Virus record (IMG/VR): IMGVR_UViG_3300022074_000271
Location: 1-29,005 of that record
Reading direction: 5' to 3' (one strand)
DNA length: 29,005 nt
Origin: a virus
A program made the position numbers and the translations under genes. The notes below the pieces were generated by a model. That model was not told the DNA's origin and searched no databases. It saw only the letters and a list, made by a program, of their open reading frames with translations. Of this stretch, positions 13,817 through 19,108 are shown in pieces. How positions within the stretch are numbered: the stretch's first letter is position 1; every line of letters begins with the position of its first letter.

Positions 13817-14582
13817 CTTTGTACTGCTTTAGTTTCGTTTAAATCTGTTTCATAAGTGAGCCAAGTTAAACACTCATATAAACTCAAATTAGTTATTCTT
13901 TCTAAATTAATTATTTCTCCATTTGTTAATCTATACATCACACCGAACCAACCCCACTTGTCGGCAAATTGTTCATCTGCACTTTGTTTAGTATCGCTAT
14001 ATTCTGATGTGTTAAAAACTGCTGCAAACATCTCAATAGTTCTTTCACGAAAGTCCAAAAAAAAACCAAAGCATTATTTACATCTTCTGCTTTCATTTTC
14101 TTAAATTTTTCTGCTCTCATTCTTAGATCACTTTTACCATAAGCTTCAATAGAATAATTATCTCCATCTATTTCTGTAATAGGTCTATATAAAACAGCCA
14201 TTAATTTAGGTAAGTTATTTTCAATACCATTTTTAAAATATGTTTCTATATCTGCATATTCGCCAATAGTAATTTCCTCAAGATTTGGGTGAAAGCCGTA
14301 CTTAACATCATTTATTTTAATTATTTTTTTTAAATTACTTTTTGTTTCTTCTTGCAACTTAGCTACTTTTTGTAAAATAATAGCTACATCATTAATTGAT
14401 AATTCTTTTATCAACTTTATAGGCATATCAGATAATGTGCTTATTATTTCTAAAGCTTCTTCACTTTTAGTTCTTTCTTTAACACTTATTAATTTTACCC
14501 ACTTATCAAGAGTTACATCACTCCAACTGTTTATCATTGTGTAAACACTCTCTTTGCCATCTTTATTAATTTTCAATCGCAT
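13813..14582 (-). CDS. Tail assembly chaperone, -1 frameshift product (about 256 aa)
   Basis: This is the predicted long product: residues 1-175 come from the frame starting at ATG 14582; then the ribosome slips back one base on T9 (14065-14057) and reads 81 more residues in the -1 frame to the stop at 13813. The joined sequence reads NNALVFFLDFRERTIEMF at the junction. The downstream part (KWGWFGVMYRLTNGEIINLE and LYECLTWLTYETDLNE) looks like a real folded domain, while the 0-frame tail beyond the slip looks like shadow sequence. Its stop overlaps the next ATG. This resembles the gpG/gpGT logic of lambda-like tails, though several genes separate it from the tape measure here. A homopolymer sequencing error would give the same picture. 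Confidence 0.6.
13938..14582 (-). CDS. Tail assembly chaperone candidate, 0-frame product (214 aa)
   Basis: The 0-frame reads from ATG 14582 to a stop at 13938. The first 175 residues form a helical protein (SWSDVTLDKWVKLISVKERT, SINDVAIILQKVAKLQEETK, EEITIGEYADIETYFKNGI) consistent with a tail chaperone. The final 39 residues after the T9 tract overlap the -1 frame and are likely a short extension made when no slip occurs. The ATG is contained in TATTATATATTATG of the promoter candidate at 14586-14614. I infer the chaperone role from the frameshift architecture and position after terminase; no sequence motif proves it. Confidence 0.6.
   Translation of the reverse strand: MRLKINKDGKESVYTMINSWSDVTLDKWVKLISVKERTKSEEALEIISTLSDMPIKLIKELSINDVAIILQKVAKLQEETKSNLKKIIKINDVKYGFHPNLEEITIGEYADIETYFKNGIENNLPKLMAVLYRPITEIDGDNYSIEAYGKSDLRMRAEKFKKMKAEDVNNALVFFWTFVKELLRCLQQFLTHQNIAILNKVQMNNLPTSGVGSV
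14057..14066 (-). promoter_or_regulatory. Slippery site for -1 ribosomal frameshifting
   Basis: On the minus strand the 0-frame codons are GTT TTT TTT TGG, containing the heptamer T TTT TTT of the canonical X XXY YYZ form. Both tRNAs can re-pair perfectly after slipping back one base, and the next codon is then TTG followed by GAC. The following bases could form only a weak 4-bp stem, so a strong stimulatory structure is not obvious. Confidence 0.6.
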
Positions 14583-14585
14583 AAT

Positions 14586-14614
14586 ATATAATAGAATTAT
14601 TTGGAATTTAGTTT
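14586..14614 (-). promoter_or_regulatory. Phage-type promoter candidate, copy 2
   Basis: On the minus strand AAACTAAA (14614-14607; a weaker match to CAAAYAAA) is followed by 13 bases and TATTATAT (14593-14586); the chaperone ATG is at 14582 (TATTATATATTATG). It lies in the 108-base gap after the large terminase and would drive the tail operon. Confidence 0.55.
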
Positions 14615-14660
14615 AAAATTGTATATTTGTCCACGTTTTCAAAAAGTTTTTGTTTTTCAA

Positions 14661-14688
14661 AGGTGTAATTCTTAGGAGTTGCACCTTT
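14661..14688. terminator. Hairpin after the large terminase gene, possible terminator
   Basis: Plus-strand arms AAGGTG(14660-14665) and CACCTT(14682-14687), extended by two more pairs across one mismatch, can form a stem just 3 bases after the TerL stop (14691). A run of T follows only on the plus strand; on the minus strand a run of A precedes the stem. It could stop antisense transcription or act as a weak terminator for the terminase unit. The rest of the gap (14616-14660) is A/T-rich with nothing else recognisable. Confidence 0.4.
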
Positions 14689-14690
14689 TT

Positions 14691-16001
14691 CTATTGCACA
14701 TAATACTTACCATAATTAGAATCTAATTCAAAAAACATTCGCATAGCTATAGCATCTGCATAATCAGGAGATCTACCTATAATATCTTTAACTGTTTCTT
14801 TAGGTATCATCTGTAGCTTATTATCTTTGTCTGCATCTTTTGTTCTAACTTGTTCTAGTTCTTCTATAATGTGATTTTTAATATTAATATCTTCACATTC
14901 AATGCCTACTTGTGCAGTATTTACCATATCTGCTAATTTATAATAACATTGTGTTTTTAAATTTTGATAGTTCTCTCCTTTTATTGCTCTTGAATTATTT
15001 ACAAAACCTCTGCAACGTAAGTAATCTTTAACTCCACCACCTACACCATCTTCATCAACTATAATATTAGTTAATCTAACTGCGTATTGTTGTTGTAATA
15101 TCTTAATTTGATCTACAACCTCATTTACAGCCGATTTAAGCATAGTTCTTATCTTTTTAATATGTAACCCTTCCCAATACATTATAACTGTTCTATCGCT
15201 TCCAAAACGTGCTACATCACAACTTATGTATTTTTCGCCACTAATACCTGTTTGATTAAATAAGTTAAGTATAGCATCATATTCTATTAAATTATCATTA
15301 GTTGCATCATATTCCCAATTACCATAAAGAAGTCGTTGTTTGCTTAATTCATCTAATGTAAGTAGCTGTGATTTATAATGCTTAGAAATAAATTGATTAT
15401 CATCTACTAAACTTTGAATAAATTGTCTATGTGGTTTTTGTATTCCTTCTTTAGCAGGTTTATAATATTGAGTATATACCCAATTCTTAGCAGGGTTACA
15501 AGTCATTAACAATTTAGGTATTAAGTCATATTGATCTAACTTATATCTCATTCTAGATGCTACTATGTTCTTTGCTTTCTCTGTTATTTGATTCGCTTCA
15601 TCTATAAAAGCTGCTGTTATTTCTAATGAACCTAAACTGTCAAAATTCTTATCAGATGGATAAAGAAATAAATCTTTTAATATTATTTCACTACCATTGT
15701 AAAACTTAATAATGTTAGATCCTGCGTTAAAATTGTAATGTTTGTTTGCTAATATGCCCCAAGTTTGACATACTTCAAAGAATGTATTTAATGTAGTTTT
15801 CTTTAAGCTGTCTAGCTTAGATCTACCCATTAAGTATCTTGTTTGAGGGTATTTAATACAAAGTAAGATAAGCCAACTACAACCTACCCAACTCTTACCT
15901 CCACCTGCTGCACCACCAAATAATACTTCTGTTGTTTTTTTGTCAAATAGATATTCTATTGCTTGTCCTTGAGTATATGTAAATTCAGTATCAATGTTCA
16001 A
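14691..16001 (-). CDS. terL: Terminase large subunit (TerL)
   Basis: DNA-packaging ATPase and nuclease, 436 residues. The Walker A motif is GGAAGGGKS at 29-37, Walker B AFIDE at 131-135, and the coupling motif LLMTCNPAKNWVY follows near 165-175. The RNase-H-like nuclease is marked by CDVARFGSDRT near 258, IIVDEDGVGGGV near 315 and PDYADAIAMR near 415, giving the expected acidic residues. The only usable start is TTG at 16001: the frame upstream reaches a stop at 16014-16016 with no ATG or GTG. The gene overlaps TerS by 11 bases. The complete set of motifs suggests a functional enzyme. Confidence 0.95.
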   Translation of the reverse strand: MNIDTEFTYTQGQAIEYLFDKKTTEVLFGGAAGGGKSWVGCSWLILLCIKYPQTRYLMGRSKLDSLKKTTLNTFFEVCQTWGILANKHYNFNAGSNIIKFYNGSEIILKDLFLYPSDKNFDSLGSLEITAAFIDEANQITEKAKNIVASRMRYKLDQYDLIPKLLMTCNPAKNWVYTQYYKPAKEGIQKPHRQFIQSLVDDNQFISKHYKSQLLTLDELSKQRLLYGNWEYDATNDNLIEYDAILNLFNQTGISGEKYISCDVARFGSDRTVIMYWEGLHIKKIRTMLKSAVNEVVDQIKILQQQYAVRLTNIIVDEDGVGGGVKDYLRCRGFVNNSRAIKGENYQNLKTQCYYKLADMVNTAQVGIECEDINIKNHIIEELEQVRTKDADKDNKLQMIPKETVKDIIGRSPDYADAIAMRMFFELDSNYGKYYVQ

Positions 16002-16344
16002 CTCCTTTGATATTTACATTTATCTTAATTGGTTCTTCTCCTGAACTTAAATCTAATTCACTTCTTTCTATATATCCTCTTTTCTTTCCTTTTGTCTTTA
16101 AGTAAAATATAGTAGCTGAAGTGCTACCATCTTTTATCTGTGTATGTAATTGACTTTCTGCAAAATCTAAAGCAACATTCTCTATTTCTTTTACAGCTTG
16201 TGCAAACTCTTGATCTTCTTTTAGCCACTTATAATATGTACTTCTAGGTGTTTCTGTCTTTTTACAAGCTACTGTAACAACTCCTAAACTGTTTTCTAAT
16301 GCTTGTAGCATAGCTTCTTTTTTAATATGTCTACTTTTGTTCAT
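15991..16344 (-). CDS. terS: Terminase small subunit (TerS)
   Basis: The 117-residue protein has an N-terminal helix-turn-helix (MLQALENSLGVVTVACKKTE then RSTYYKWLKEDQEFAQAV), a central helix for oligomerisation (IENVALDFAESQLHTQIKDG) and SATIFYLKTKGKKRGY, the usual build of TerS proteins that recognise phage DNA for packaging. Its ATG overlaps the TAA of the glycosyltransferase gene by one base (TAATG), so terminase is translated from the same message as ParB and the glycosyltransferase. Confidence 0.85.
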   Translation of the reverse strand: MNKSRHIKKEAMLQALENSLGVVTVACKKTETPRSTYYKWLKEDQEFAQAVKEIENVALDFAESQLHTQIKDGSTSATIFYLKTKGKKRGYIERSELDLSSGEEPIKINVNIKGVEH

Positions 16345-17060
16345 TATAAATTTAATCTAATACAAAATTCATTATTTTTCCTTTTTGCACTTGCTACCAT
16401 TTTAGGATATTGTTTTATTAATTTTTTAATACATTCTTTTTCTACTTCTATAGTTCTATAATCTTTACAACCTCCCTCTGTACTCCAATGCTCATTTTCC
16501 CAATGTAAATATCTTACTCCTAAAATACCTCCTTTATCTTTTATATGTCTTAAACATATTTCATAATCTTCTTTTACTTTATAACTTTCATCAAAATAAT
16601 ATTCTCCATCATTAATCATACCCATACAACTTGCTGTTAAATATGTTCTAAAAAGAAAAGGTTTATATGGATAAACACCTCTAGGACTGCTTTCTGTTCT
16701 TACTCCCCACATTTTATAATCTAATTCTTCTAACATACCAAAAAACTTTAAAAATTCTTCTTCCCAAAACTTTTCATCTCTTATTTCTATTTTTTTAGTT
16801 TTTCTTTCATCTAATCTAGAATATCCACAAGTCTTTACATCATCATCAATAAATACTATATATCTTTCTTTAGTATTTTTTAATATCCAATTTCTAGTCG
16901 CTGTTATACCTTTAACATCTACCGGTACTCCTACTACATTTTTAATATAGCTTTTATATTGATGTACTTCACTTTCTGGTACATAAAAAGTCGCATTAGG
17001 TAAAACCTTTTGACTTGTTGTTCTACCTGCTCTATTTTTACTAGGAATTGCTACTATCAT
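16344..17060 (-). CDS. TET-associated-type glycosyltransferase (GT-A fold)
   Basis: The 238-residue protein starts MIVAIPSKNRAGRTTSQKVL and has the metal/nucleotide-sugar binding IVFIDDDV with DDD at 72-74, then GVRTESSPRGVYPYKPF, MGMINDGEYYFDE, the acceptor-side KEDYEICLRHIKDKGG and WSTEGGCKDYRT near 190-200. The build matches the phage TAGT glycosyltransferases described by Iyer and co-workers, which are proposed to add sugars to modified DNA bases. It overlaps the ParB-like gene by 20 bases, another hallmark of that context. No TET/JBP-type base oxidase is in this window, so the acceptor (DNA base or protein) is open. Confidence 0.72.
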   Translation of the reverse strand: MIVAIPSKNRAGRTTSQKVLPNATFYVPESEVHQYKSYIKNVVGVPVDVKGITATRNWILKNTKERYIVFIDDDVKTCGYSRLDERKTKKIEIRDEKFWEEEFLKFFGMLEELDYKMWGVRTESSPRGVYPYKPFLFRTYLTASCMGMINDGEYYFDESYKVKEDYEICLRHIKDKGGILGVRYLHWENEHWSTEGGCKDYRTIEVEKECIKKLIKQYPKMVASAKRKNNEFCIRLNL

Positions 17061-17652
17061 ATCTTTCTATAAAATTTTTATATGTTAATACTCTTTCTGT
17101 ACTTACTGCATCAAAAGCTGATCCTTTTTTATATCCTCCTTTTCTAACTATACCTAATTTTAATTTCATTTTTAATTCTTCCCATTCTACACTATTAGGT
17201 TCACACAATATAATAACATATTCTTTTGGTGGTTCTAATTGAACTGATTGAGGTAATTCTATTTCTTCATCTTCCTCTAAATTATCTATTTGATCTTCTA
17301 TTTTTAATTCTAATCCCCAATCTTCTAATTTTATACTATCCCATTCATTTGCTAGTATATCCCAATCCCATTCTCCAAATCCTACATTATCTTTAACTAT
17401 AAACTCTTTTTTTTGGTTTTCACTTAAACCTTTAGCTATTTTTACGTGTACTTCTTTTAAACCTGCTTCTATACTTGCTCTATATCTCATATTACCACCT
17501 AATATAGTCATATCTTCATCAACTACTATAGGTCTTAATTCTAACATTTCAGGAAAATCTTTTATGGATTGTACAAGTTTTTTAAACTTACTATCTTTTA
17601 TAATTCTCGGATTATCTTTATTTGGTTTTAACTTACTGATTTCTAGTTTCAT
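17041..17652 (-). CDS. ParB-like nuclease-domain protein (203 aa)
   Basis: Residues about 1-75 are a ParB N-terminal-type domain: LKPNKDNPRIIKD, LELRPIVVDED and the signature GGNMRYRA at 52-59. The middle has WDWDILANEW and an acidic linker (NLEEDEEIELP). The C-terminal part (KEYVIILCEPNSVEWEEL and GGYKKGSAFDAVSTERV) recurs with ParB-like proteins of Bacteroidota phages as I remember them. It begins at an ATG within TATTATATACTATG of a promoter candidate and heads the ParB-glycosyltransferase-TerS-TerL unit. It may direct modification or mark DNA for packaging; both are inference. Confidence 0.72.
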   Translation of the reverse strand: MKLEISKLKPNKDNPRIIKDSKFKKLVQSIKDFPEMLELRPIVVDEDMTILGGNMRYRASIEAGLKEVHVKIAKGLSENQKKEFIVKDNVGFGEWDWDILANEWDSIKLEDWGLELKIEDQIDNLEEDEEIELPQSVQLEPPKEYVIILCEPNSVEWEELKMKLKLGIVRKGGYKKGSAFDAVSTERVLTYKNFIERYDSSNS

Positions 17653-17655
17653 AGT

Positions 17656-17684
17656 ATATAATAGAATTTTATTTAATTTATTTT
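17656..17684 (-). promoter_or_regulatory. Phage-type promoter candidate, copy 1
   Basis: On the minus strand AAAATAAA (17684-17677), 13 bases, then TATTATAT (17663-17656), with the ParB-like ATG at 17652 (TATTATATACTATG). The upstream block overlaps the stop of the zinc-ribbon gene (17678). It separates the early operon from the terminase unit. Confidence 0.6.
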
Positions 17685-17911
17685 AATCTGTCTTTAACTC
17701 CACTCCATAGTTTATCTTTTCTATTAGACAAACTAGGTTCTGTTCTTTTTATATTTGGAAAGCCACCAAATTCTTTTTCTACTTCTTGCATATATTCACC
17801 ACACTTAGGACATTCAGATCCTATATTACAAATTTTACCATCAATAACTTTCATTACAACTTTAGTTAGTTGTATTTGTATTTCACATTTGTTGCATTGA
17901 TATAATAACAT
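17678..17911 (-). CDS. Zinc-ribbon protein (77 aa)
   Basis: Two Cys pairs, C6-x2-C9 and C34-x2-C37 (ECPKCGEYM), with C28 between them, form a zinc ribbon. The rest contains EVEKEFGGFPNIKRTEPSL and a basic C-terminus. A nucleic-acid-binding or adaptor role is likely but unproved. It is the last gene before the promoter at 17656-17684, one base after the DUF3310-like gene. Confidence 0.7.
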   Translation of the reverse strand: MLLYQCNKCEIQIQLTKVVMKVIDGKICNIGSECPKCGEYMQEVEKEFGGFPNIKRTEPSLSNRKDKLWSGVKDRLK

Positions 17912-17912
17912 T

Positions 17913-18179
17913 TTAAATATGATTTAATCTCAATTTACTTAATTTTTTTTTCTCTAGTTCTTCTAATTCAAATTCTAAATGATGTATTGCTTTCTTAACA
18001 TCTTCAATATGTTTATCTATATTGCTCATTCCATTTTCTGTTTTCTTACCACACCTTAAAAGATAAGTAACAGAATTACCTACATTGTAACTTAATTCCC
18101 AATCAGCTATTACTTTTCTAGCTTCATATTTATAATATTTTCCGATATAATAATTAGGTATTTTATTTGTATTTTTCAT
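17913..18179 (-). CDS. DUF3310-like protein (88 aa)
   Basis: The phrases YYKYEARKVIADWELSYNVG, NSVTYLLRCGKK and DVKKAIHHLEFELEELE match the small DUF3310 domain that occurs in many phages and, with additions, in the T7 gp1.7 nucleotide kinase. Alone it has no kinase motif. It overlaps the upstream cysteine-rich gene by 17 bases. A part in nucleotide metabolism is inferred from family membership. Confidence 0.75.
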   Translation of the reverse strand: MKNTNKIPNYYIGKYYKYEARKVIADWELSYNVGNSVTYLLRCGKKTENGMSNIDKHIEDVKKAIHHLEFELEELEKKKLSKLRLNHI

Positions 18180-18561
18180 ATATTATTTTTATTCCTTTAA
18201 AACAATCATTTAAACAAGTACCGCAGCTAGTATTAGTTTTATAATTAGTTCCGTAAATTGTATTGTATAATGTTATCATTCTTTTTTTTACTGCTTGATT
18301 CTTTGCTATACCTGTTTTTATATCTTCCCATAATAATACAACTTCATCTATTAATTCTTGAGGTATATCATCAGGTTTTTCTATCTCTGTAGTTTTATCC
18401 CAATATTTTTGTGGACAAGATAATGTTCCGATTCTTGCCTTGATAGACATAAAACACAAACAAATTTTGCAGCTTCCTGTAGGTTTAAAATAATAAACAC
18501 ATTCTTTACAGATACTTAATCTATCTTTATAAACTTCATCTGTAACAAAAAATTTATTCAT
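18163..18561 (-). CDS. Cysteine-rich protein (132 aa)
   Basis: An N-terminal zinc-binding module has C18, C21, C31, C34, C36 and C49 (ICKECVYYF, GSCKICLCFMSIK, LSCPQKYW). A helical middle (ELIDEVVLLWEDIKTG) leads to a second Cys motif SCGTCLNDCFKGIK after LYNTIYGTNYKT. Such two-part proteins are common in T4-like and Bacteroidota phages; function unknown to me. It overlaps the sigma-like gene by 8 bases. Confidence 0.65.
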   Translation of the reverse strand: MNKFFVTDEVYKDRLSICKECVYYFKPTGSCKICLCFMSIKARIGTLSCPQKYWDKTTEIEKPDDIPQELIDEVVLLWEDIKTGIAKNQAVKKRMITLYNTIYGTNYKTNTSCGTCLNDCFKGIKIIYEKYK

Positions 18562-19108
18562 TTAACAAATCTTTTAATTGCTCTCTTACTTTGTCTATAG
18601 TCGTGAACAAGCTATTTCTACTTATGCCTGTTTTTTTTGCTAGTCCTGATAAGGTATTTCCTTCGTAATAGTACAGCTTAAATACATCTCTATCGTACCA
18701 ATAAAATTGATCTAATGCTTTGTCTATAAGTTCTAGCTTTTGCCATTGTTTATATTGATCTGCATTAGGAATATTATATAAATGTTTTTTGTGATATACA
18801 TCTGTACTATCATTAGTTATGTCTGTAGATCTACTATCTATATGTGTATAATATTTCTTATACTTATAATAATAAGGACTTCTATTACTTGTAAAACTTC
18901 TTCTTAGAACTACAGCACCATAAGACAAAATACCTTTTTTACCATCTTTTTCATATATTGACTTTAAAGTATCAGGATTCATTTGCATAAAATATAACAT
19001 CAATTCCTGAACGACCTCATTAATTTCATTTTCATCTTGCGTAAAAGTAAAAGACATTTCTACAAATGTTTCCCTACAATCTGCTACTATTTTATATATC
19101 TTATTCAT
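18554..19108 (-). CDS. Sigma-factor-like transcription protein (184 aa)
   Basis: The C-terminal 55 residues form a region-4-like helix-turn-helix: ALDQFYWYDRDVFKLYYYEG, then TLSGLAKKTGISRNSLFTTI as the two-helix motif. The N-terminal part (ENEINEVVQELMLYFMQMNP) and a basic middle (LRRSFTSNRSPYYYKYKKYY) could stand in for a reduced region 2, though no clear core-binding motif is seen. It is in the second half of the early operon and is the best candidate for the factor that reads the five CAAAYAAA-N13-TATTATAT elements; this link is inference. Confidence 0.65.
   Translation of the reverse strand: MNKIYKIVADCRETFVEMSFTFTQDENEINEVVQELMLYFMQMNPDTLKSIYEKDGKKGILSYGAVVLRRSFTSNRSPYYYKYKKYYTHIDSRSTDITNDSTDVYHKKHLYNIPNADQYKQWQKLELIDKALDQFYWYDRDVFKLYYYEGNTLSGLAKKTGISRNSLFTTIDKVREQLKDLLNE

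Follow-up and report, generated by a model that had tools for sequence, protein, structure and literature searches.

The stretch analyzed here, referred to as the window, is an entire linear IMG/VR virus record of 29,005 bases, which may represent a fragment. A tight gene run on its minus strand encodes, in this order, a ParB-superfamily protein of 203 amino acids (17041..17652), a TAGT-family glycosyltransferase (GT) of the GT-A type with 238 amino acids (16344..17060), the terminase small subunit TerS (15991..16344; phrog_309, E 3e-9) and the terminase large subunit TerL (14691..16001; PF04466, E 5e-17; phrog_2, E 2e-33), with no gap from the GT gene to TerL. Our analysis reproduced the coordinates of the first two reading frames as given in the initial annotation, as well as their 20-base overlap at 17041..17060, where the ParB gene ends and the GT gene starts. 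Among relatives from the window's clade, 69 pairs were measured and 65 of them overlap by exactly 23 bases, and translational coupling of the two genes appears likely. Directly after the TerL gene lies a 13-pair hairpin (14659-14688), beyond which comes a T-rich plus-strand tail. A promoter common to the pair and TerS-TerL, as originally proposed, was dropped, since the 33 promoter-like sites found in the interval 14500-19000 are no more than expected by chance (29.8 +/- 5.6 in shuffled sequences).

The GT matches the Pfam TAGT family PF20691 over the full profile (positions 1-205) with 53.3 bits and an E-value of 4e-14, the curated cut-off being 27.5 bits, and phrog_842 of the PHROGs collection with an E-value of 1e-22. 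Profile comparison by hhalign aligned it with T6 ggt over residues 24-222 (probability 93.7, E 2e-7). Three residues, D72, D73, and D165, are invariant in an alignment of 18 diverse TAGT-type proteins, T6 included. The first two belong to a DDD motif (residues 72-74; 16839..16847, minus strand) that by analogy may form the metal/nucleotide-sugar site, and D165 lies in a KEDY motif (residues 163-166; 16563..16574, minus strand), which we take to be the catalytic ED of GT2-type enzymes. The enzyme is under purifying selection, with a dN/dS of about 0.05 relative to its two nearest relatives. Most of a tree built from the 18 TAGT sequences lacked resolution, T6, Gordonia, and Microbacterium sitting on long branches, and we therefore base no claim on it.

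The predicted GT model (pLDDT 86) adopts a GT-A fold and aligns with PDB structures at Z-scores of up to 15.3 (rmsd 3.5, 198 aligned residues). All 999 of 999 aligned PDB chains, spanning many GT-A classes, scored Z >= 5, and the nearest solved folds are those of generic GT-A enzymes whose acceptors are proteins, polysaccharides, and teichoic acid. Its viral fold neighbors include annotated TAGTs, such as the beta-glucosyl-HMC-alpha-GT of Klebsiella phage PKO111 (TM 0.78). The fold comparison suggested in the initial annotation thus finds a GT-A fold, but cannot tell whether the acceptor is DNA, a protein, or a polysaccharide, because TAGTs have the GT-A fold in common with glycosyltransferases for proteins, lipids, and polysaccharides. 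This shared fold leaves room for a GT that glycosylates a protein, such as capsid or terminase, or a host surface polymer, with ParB as an unrelated neighbor or a regulator. Some carriers are prophages, and glycosyltransferases often bring about lysogenic conversion, which would suit such a role. We nevertheless regard it as unlikely, given that the family match is TAGT-specific, that ParB is linked to TAGT across several phage lineages including a lytic cluster, and that the same genomic slot is occupied by DNA methyltransferases, Mom, and DpdA-like enzymes, as detailed below.

The ParB-like protein scored 31.5 bits (E 2e-7) against ParB_N (PF02195; cut-off 26.3 bits). It consists of a ParB_N domain (residues ~2-92; 17377..17649, minus strand) and a C-terminal module (residues 128-203; 17041..17271, minus strand). 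Residues 1-92 of its AlphaFold2 model superimpose on the CTP-binding ParB of Myxococcus xanthus (7bnr) with a Z-score of 13.3 and an rmsd of 1.4 over 88 residues. The M. xanthus residues Q52 and E93 correspond to N14 and N54 in the window protein, N14 being invariant across the family alignment. Presumably, Q52 and E93 serve in hydrolysis. Structures of M. xanthus ParB mutated at Q52 and E93 have been solved with bound nucleotide, and since the ParB_N fold is kept while both residues are replaced, nucleotide binding without hydrolysis is plausible for the window protein. As to the central HTH domain that binds parS, Pfam recognized ParB_N alone in this protein, and the C-terminal part of the model is of low confidence. 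A role in partition was rejected, as no HTH was recognized and the Q52 and E93 positions are replaced.

The two modules of ParB behave differently relative to the GT. Within the window's clade (67 ParB-GT pairs), pairwise identities of the C-terminal part correlated with those of the GT at a rank correlation of 0.77, versus 0.43 for the N-domain, and in 376 locus pairs the C-terminal part was more than 25 percentage points more alike than the N-terminal part, the opposite being seen in 8; the locus pairs are not independent, and the figures therefore describe a pattern rather than constitute a statistical test. The window and locus L006 illustrate this, with 35% identity in the ParB N-domain, 88% in the C-terminal part, and 79% in the GT. 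The C-terminal part, used as query on its own, retrieved 38 loci, 37 of them with a GT, and in the remaining one the stored stretch stops inside ParB. We infer that the C-terminal part is a GT-docking module to which exchangeable, swappable N-domains are joined. In three loci (L176:2078-2863, as well as L177 and L178), the phage carries a second ParB_N gene upstream of its ParB-TAGT pair.

The search with the GT yielded 79 viral loci, and a second GT clade, 25% identical and entered via Streptococcus phage Javan291, which has the ParB-TAGT pair, added 80 further loci. Over both clades, a ParB relative lies upstream in 132 of the 140 GT loci that have an upstream gene; the pairing is more than chance. 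As sole query, the window GT matched one phage record in INPHARED, and a genome scan for relatives with named hosts returned two MAG contigs only; the other phage lineages were found through ParB and c5 queries. Phages infecting Streptococcus, Lactobacillus, Microbacterium, Gordonia, Nocardia, and E. coli carry the pair as well, as does a haloarchaeal virus. Lactobacillus phage c5 (complete genome, 31.8 kb) has the order cos, ParB, TAGT, two small genes, TerL. Cluster EC of the Microbacterium phages (56 records, lytic, circularly permuted) carries the pair with a partial UDP-glucose dehydrogenase gene behind it. This dehydrogenase-like gene (260 amino acids) overlaps the GT gene (L201:6346-7128) and may hint at a uronic-acid donor. 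Further carriers are haloarchaeal virus HHTV-2, Gordonia phage Lilbeanie, E. coli phage vB_EcoS-673R7, Nocardia phage NTR1, and Lactobacillus gasseri phage JNU_P11, where the TAGT call in the last three is by tblastn similarity to the c5 enzyme (39%, 39%, and 32%, respectively). In all these wider carriers (EC, c5, HHTV-2, Lilbeanie, 673R7, NTR1, and JNU_P11), ParB was identified by profile with E-values of 4e-9 or better. The E. coli version is widespread, its ParB-TAGT DNA being present at >=80% coverage in 885 of 5,426 complete genomes. Two variations of the TAGT gene were also noted. Proteins of 463-473 amino acids have an N-terminal extension of about 190 residues (L272:4735-6156 and L286:4726-6117), with no PHROG match for the L272 extension. 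In two other loci, the TAGT frame is interrupted solely by in-frame TGA codons, three in L141 (G072:29071-29598) and five in L149 (G075:16559-17086), and TGA may therefore be read as an amino acid there.

The company kept by ParB_N in related phages speaks to the substrate of the GT. We surveyed the slot with the ParB_N domains of Streptococcus phage Javan492 and Bacteroides phage BS-TP3 as queries and sorted the resulting 87 loci by ParB length and neighbor. An N6_N4 methyltransferase is fused to ParB in 27 of 30 distinct long fusions, and the separate downstream partners assigned by Pfam (n = 31) comprise five TAGTs, three Mom proteins, and five methyltransferases of several kinds. The methyltransferases occupying the ParB slot of related phages are of the N6/N4, C5, and D12 types, the C5 methylase being exemplified by a Ruminococcus phage, and Bacteroides phage BS-TP3 has the order ParB, ParB-methyltransferase, TerS, TerL. 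Four partners run against PHROGs matched the queuine tRNA-ribosyltransferase family (DpdA-like), one of them resembling the annotated 7-deazaguanosine-inserting enzyme of Escherichia phage GottfriedDienst. Hence, the ParB-partnered slot exchanges DNA-modifying enzymes, and the TAGT of the window sits in such a slot: its ParB_N protein lies directly upstream of the enzyme and near the terminase, the arrangement by which, along with direct fusion, we define a ParB-partnered cassette, and from which we infer the DNA-modifying role of the TAGT. Sharing of the slot with DNA-modifying enzymes argues that the GT acts on DNA. The slot is not perfectly diagnostic, since some ParB partners (P-loop and PAPS-reductase-like proteins) are without a known DNA-modifying role. 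Examples are a P-loop protein (phrog_11143), a candidate for a so far unrecognized DNA-modifying enzyme, which occurs at L227:4498-5175 and in L228-L235 and which Leptospira phage LE3 has in combination with a GNAT domain (L202:4453-5553); and a PAPS-reductase-like protein (phrog_424) directly after ParB (L310:3018-3713), for which sulfur chemistry on DNA may be considered.

Another recurrent feature is the vicinity to terminase genes. The nearest large gene downstream is TerL in at least 77 of 84 representatives, and of these 77 TerL proteins, 71 fall into one family linked to the window's TerL and six are of the GpA type. In c5 the pair directly adjoins the cos site. These positions could mean that ParB-TAGT modifies the packaging or end region only, in the service of terminase choice, instead of the whole genome. 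We consider this quite improbable. Adjacency to the terminase is seen in the cos phage c5 and in the circularly permuted Microbacterium phages alike, in cluster EC some 3 kb of the circular map separate the end of the GT from TerS downstream, in HHTV-2 2.9 kb separate it from TerL, and a late-operon position is sufficient to explain the adjacency. The original proposal that terminase coupling reflects modification near the time of packaging stands as far as positional adjacency is concerned; this adjacency, present in both cos and circularly permuted phages, fits late expression and is not proof of modification during packaging. 'Near packaging' is a late-operon position only.

A related issue is the group that would accept the sugar. 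The T2/T6 TAGT puts a second glucose on glucosylated hmC (PMC13216743; PMC13390438), and in T6, which served as control, the dCMP hydroxymethylase gene adjoins the TAGT gene. Likewise, the 191-kb Vibrio phage pv27, with a TAGT and no annotated ParB alongside, encodes a PF00303 protein. In contrast, with controls positive, PF00303 (hydroxymethylase type) had no match in 41 carrier records of 24-89 kb (0/41) or in eight complete phage genomes bearing this kind of TAGT (0/8), and the same held for PF00145 (C5 methylase; 0/41 and 0/8). Seven of the eight complete genomes have an adjacent ParB, whereas Ld17 has a TAGT without an annotated ParB; the complete ParB-TAGT genomes span 32-65 kb. PF12851 (TET/JBP) gave zero matches in the window, carriers, and complete genomes, in a search whose controls were equally silent and that thus had no positive control. 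The fully annotated c5 genome (31.8 kb) lists no oxidase. The initial annotation had seen no modification gene in the window and had concluded that such a gene either lies outside or that the sugar acceptor is a different one. The first point now holds at the family level for PF00303 and PF00145, with the caveats that the PF12851 search was uncontrolled and that the record is possibly a fragment. Of the two branches, the balance tilts towards a different acceptor, as neither PF00303 nor PF00145 occurs in complete relatives and PF12851 gave no match.

Given that no known route to a hydroxymethyl base was found in the complete relatives, the acceptor should be either the product of an unrecognized enzyme or an ordinary base. 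One possibility that we take seriously, though tentatively, as a sub-case of the DNA-modification reading is that the TAGT acts on a base hydroxylated by an enzyme that escaped recognition, be it a divergent TET/JBP, another oxygenase, or a host-made activity. Known TAGT chemistry requires an hmC-derived acceptor (PMC13216743), the very name TAGT derives from the association with TET, and the PF12851 search was the one without a positive control. On the other hand, PF00303 and PF00145 are absent from the 41 records and the eight complete genomes with controls working, c5 has no annotated oxidase, and a host source would be needed in each of Lactobacillus, Microbacterium, E. coli, and the haloarchaea. 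Should DNA be the substrate, the acceptor may need no preparation, as with methyltransferases and Mom. About equally tentative, in our view, is the proposal that ParB-paired solitary TAGTs attach the sugar directly to an ordinary base of phage DNA that carries no hydroxyl modification, or to another canonical group, with ParB providing the targeting, as a precursor-free route in viruses of Bacteria and Archaea. If the acceptor is indeed a plain base, this would be new DNA chemistry; otherwise, an unrecognized base-activating enzyme must exist.

Taken together, we consider it probable that the ParB-TAGT pair is a two-subunit phage DNA-modification cassette with DNA as its substrate. The DNA-modification part of the initial interpretation is supported, on stronger grounds than were available at first, in that the GT belongs to the TAGT family, is homologous to the T6 enzyme, and is replaced in the ParB slot of other phages by methyltransferases, Mom, or DpdA-like proteins; the shared promoter is not supported, and the coupling to terminase is one of position. 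Speaking against DNA as substrate, the sole characterized TAGT acts on a sugar already present on hmC, and the searches of carriers turned up neither a hydroxymethylase nor a C5 methylase. In the mechanism we envisage, the TAGT would transfer a sugar from a nucleotide-sugar donor to the phage's own DNA, late in infection and along with expression of the packaging genes. The C-terminal module of ParB may dock the TAGT, and ParB_N, probably nucleotide-bound without hydrolysis, could engage DNA or set the choice of site or the timing. The sugar on the DNA would probably mask the phage genome from host nucleases.

This proposal joins two questions, namely the function of solitary TAGTs (PMC13216743) and the role of ParB beside phage DNA-modifying enzymes (PMC12783734), in a single ParB slot beside the terminase that is filled, depending on the phage, by a methyltransferase, Mom, a DpdA-like enzyme, or a TAGT. 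The small cultured phages (Lactobacillus c5 and Microbacterium cluster EC) and the E. coli prophage version offer direct test systems for solitary TAGTs.

The E. coli version has a counterpart in K-12, where the Rac prophage genes ynaK and ydaY, short genes after trkG, occupy the place of the pair. They comprise 87 and 119 codons with no terminase after them, whereas the full E. coli pairs lie upstream of TerS-TerL in the same setting; ynaK and ydaY (L222:4878-5481) thus look like truncated remnants of a ParB-TAGT pair. In a further E. coli locus (L223:4501-4758), RefSeq lists ynaK as 'incomplete', yet a phage record that matches this DNA at 100% identity contains an intact ParB gene of 263 codons, and the pseudogene call at this locus is probably wrong.

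TAGTs were probably first described by Iyer et al. in 2013 (NAR). In the literature examined, we found no report of a ParB-TAGT-terminase cassette, part of which may be contained in Iyer et al. 2013. The window GT shares PF20691 membership and the DDD, ED, and GGC...R motifs with the T6/T2 beta-glucosyl-HMC-alpha-glucosyltransferase. The settings differ in that T6 has an adjoining dCMP hydroxymethylase, an alpha-GT nearby, and no ParB, whereas in the window and its relatives ParB is present and the acceptor genes whose searches were validated by controls are all missing. TAGT is the only glycosyltransferase homolog in 288 of 753 phage genomes with GT homologs, where its function is undefined (PMC13216743, 2026); the window-type TAGT resembles these solitary enzymes in occurring without alpha-GT or beta-GT, and differs from them as reported in being ParB-paired, terminase-linked, and exchanged for other enzymes in its slot. 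ParBc proteins have been found with CmoX and fused to DNA methyltransferases, their role being stated as unknown (PMC12783734). As in these cases, ParB_N here stands beside or fused to a DNA-modifying enzyme; unlike the ParB-fused methyltransferases, the partner is a separately encoded glycosyltransferase, which is tracked by the C-terminal module of ParB. A further parallel is DpdB, a ParB-like ATPase that works with the DNA-guanine transglycosylase DpdA (PMC12839542), again a ParB-superfamily protein combined with a DNA-modifying enzyme. DpdB-DpdA belongs to a bacterial defense island and carries out another chemistry, whereas the pair described here is a phage pair near the terminase, with a ParB protein devoid of Q52 and E93 equivalents.
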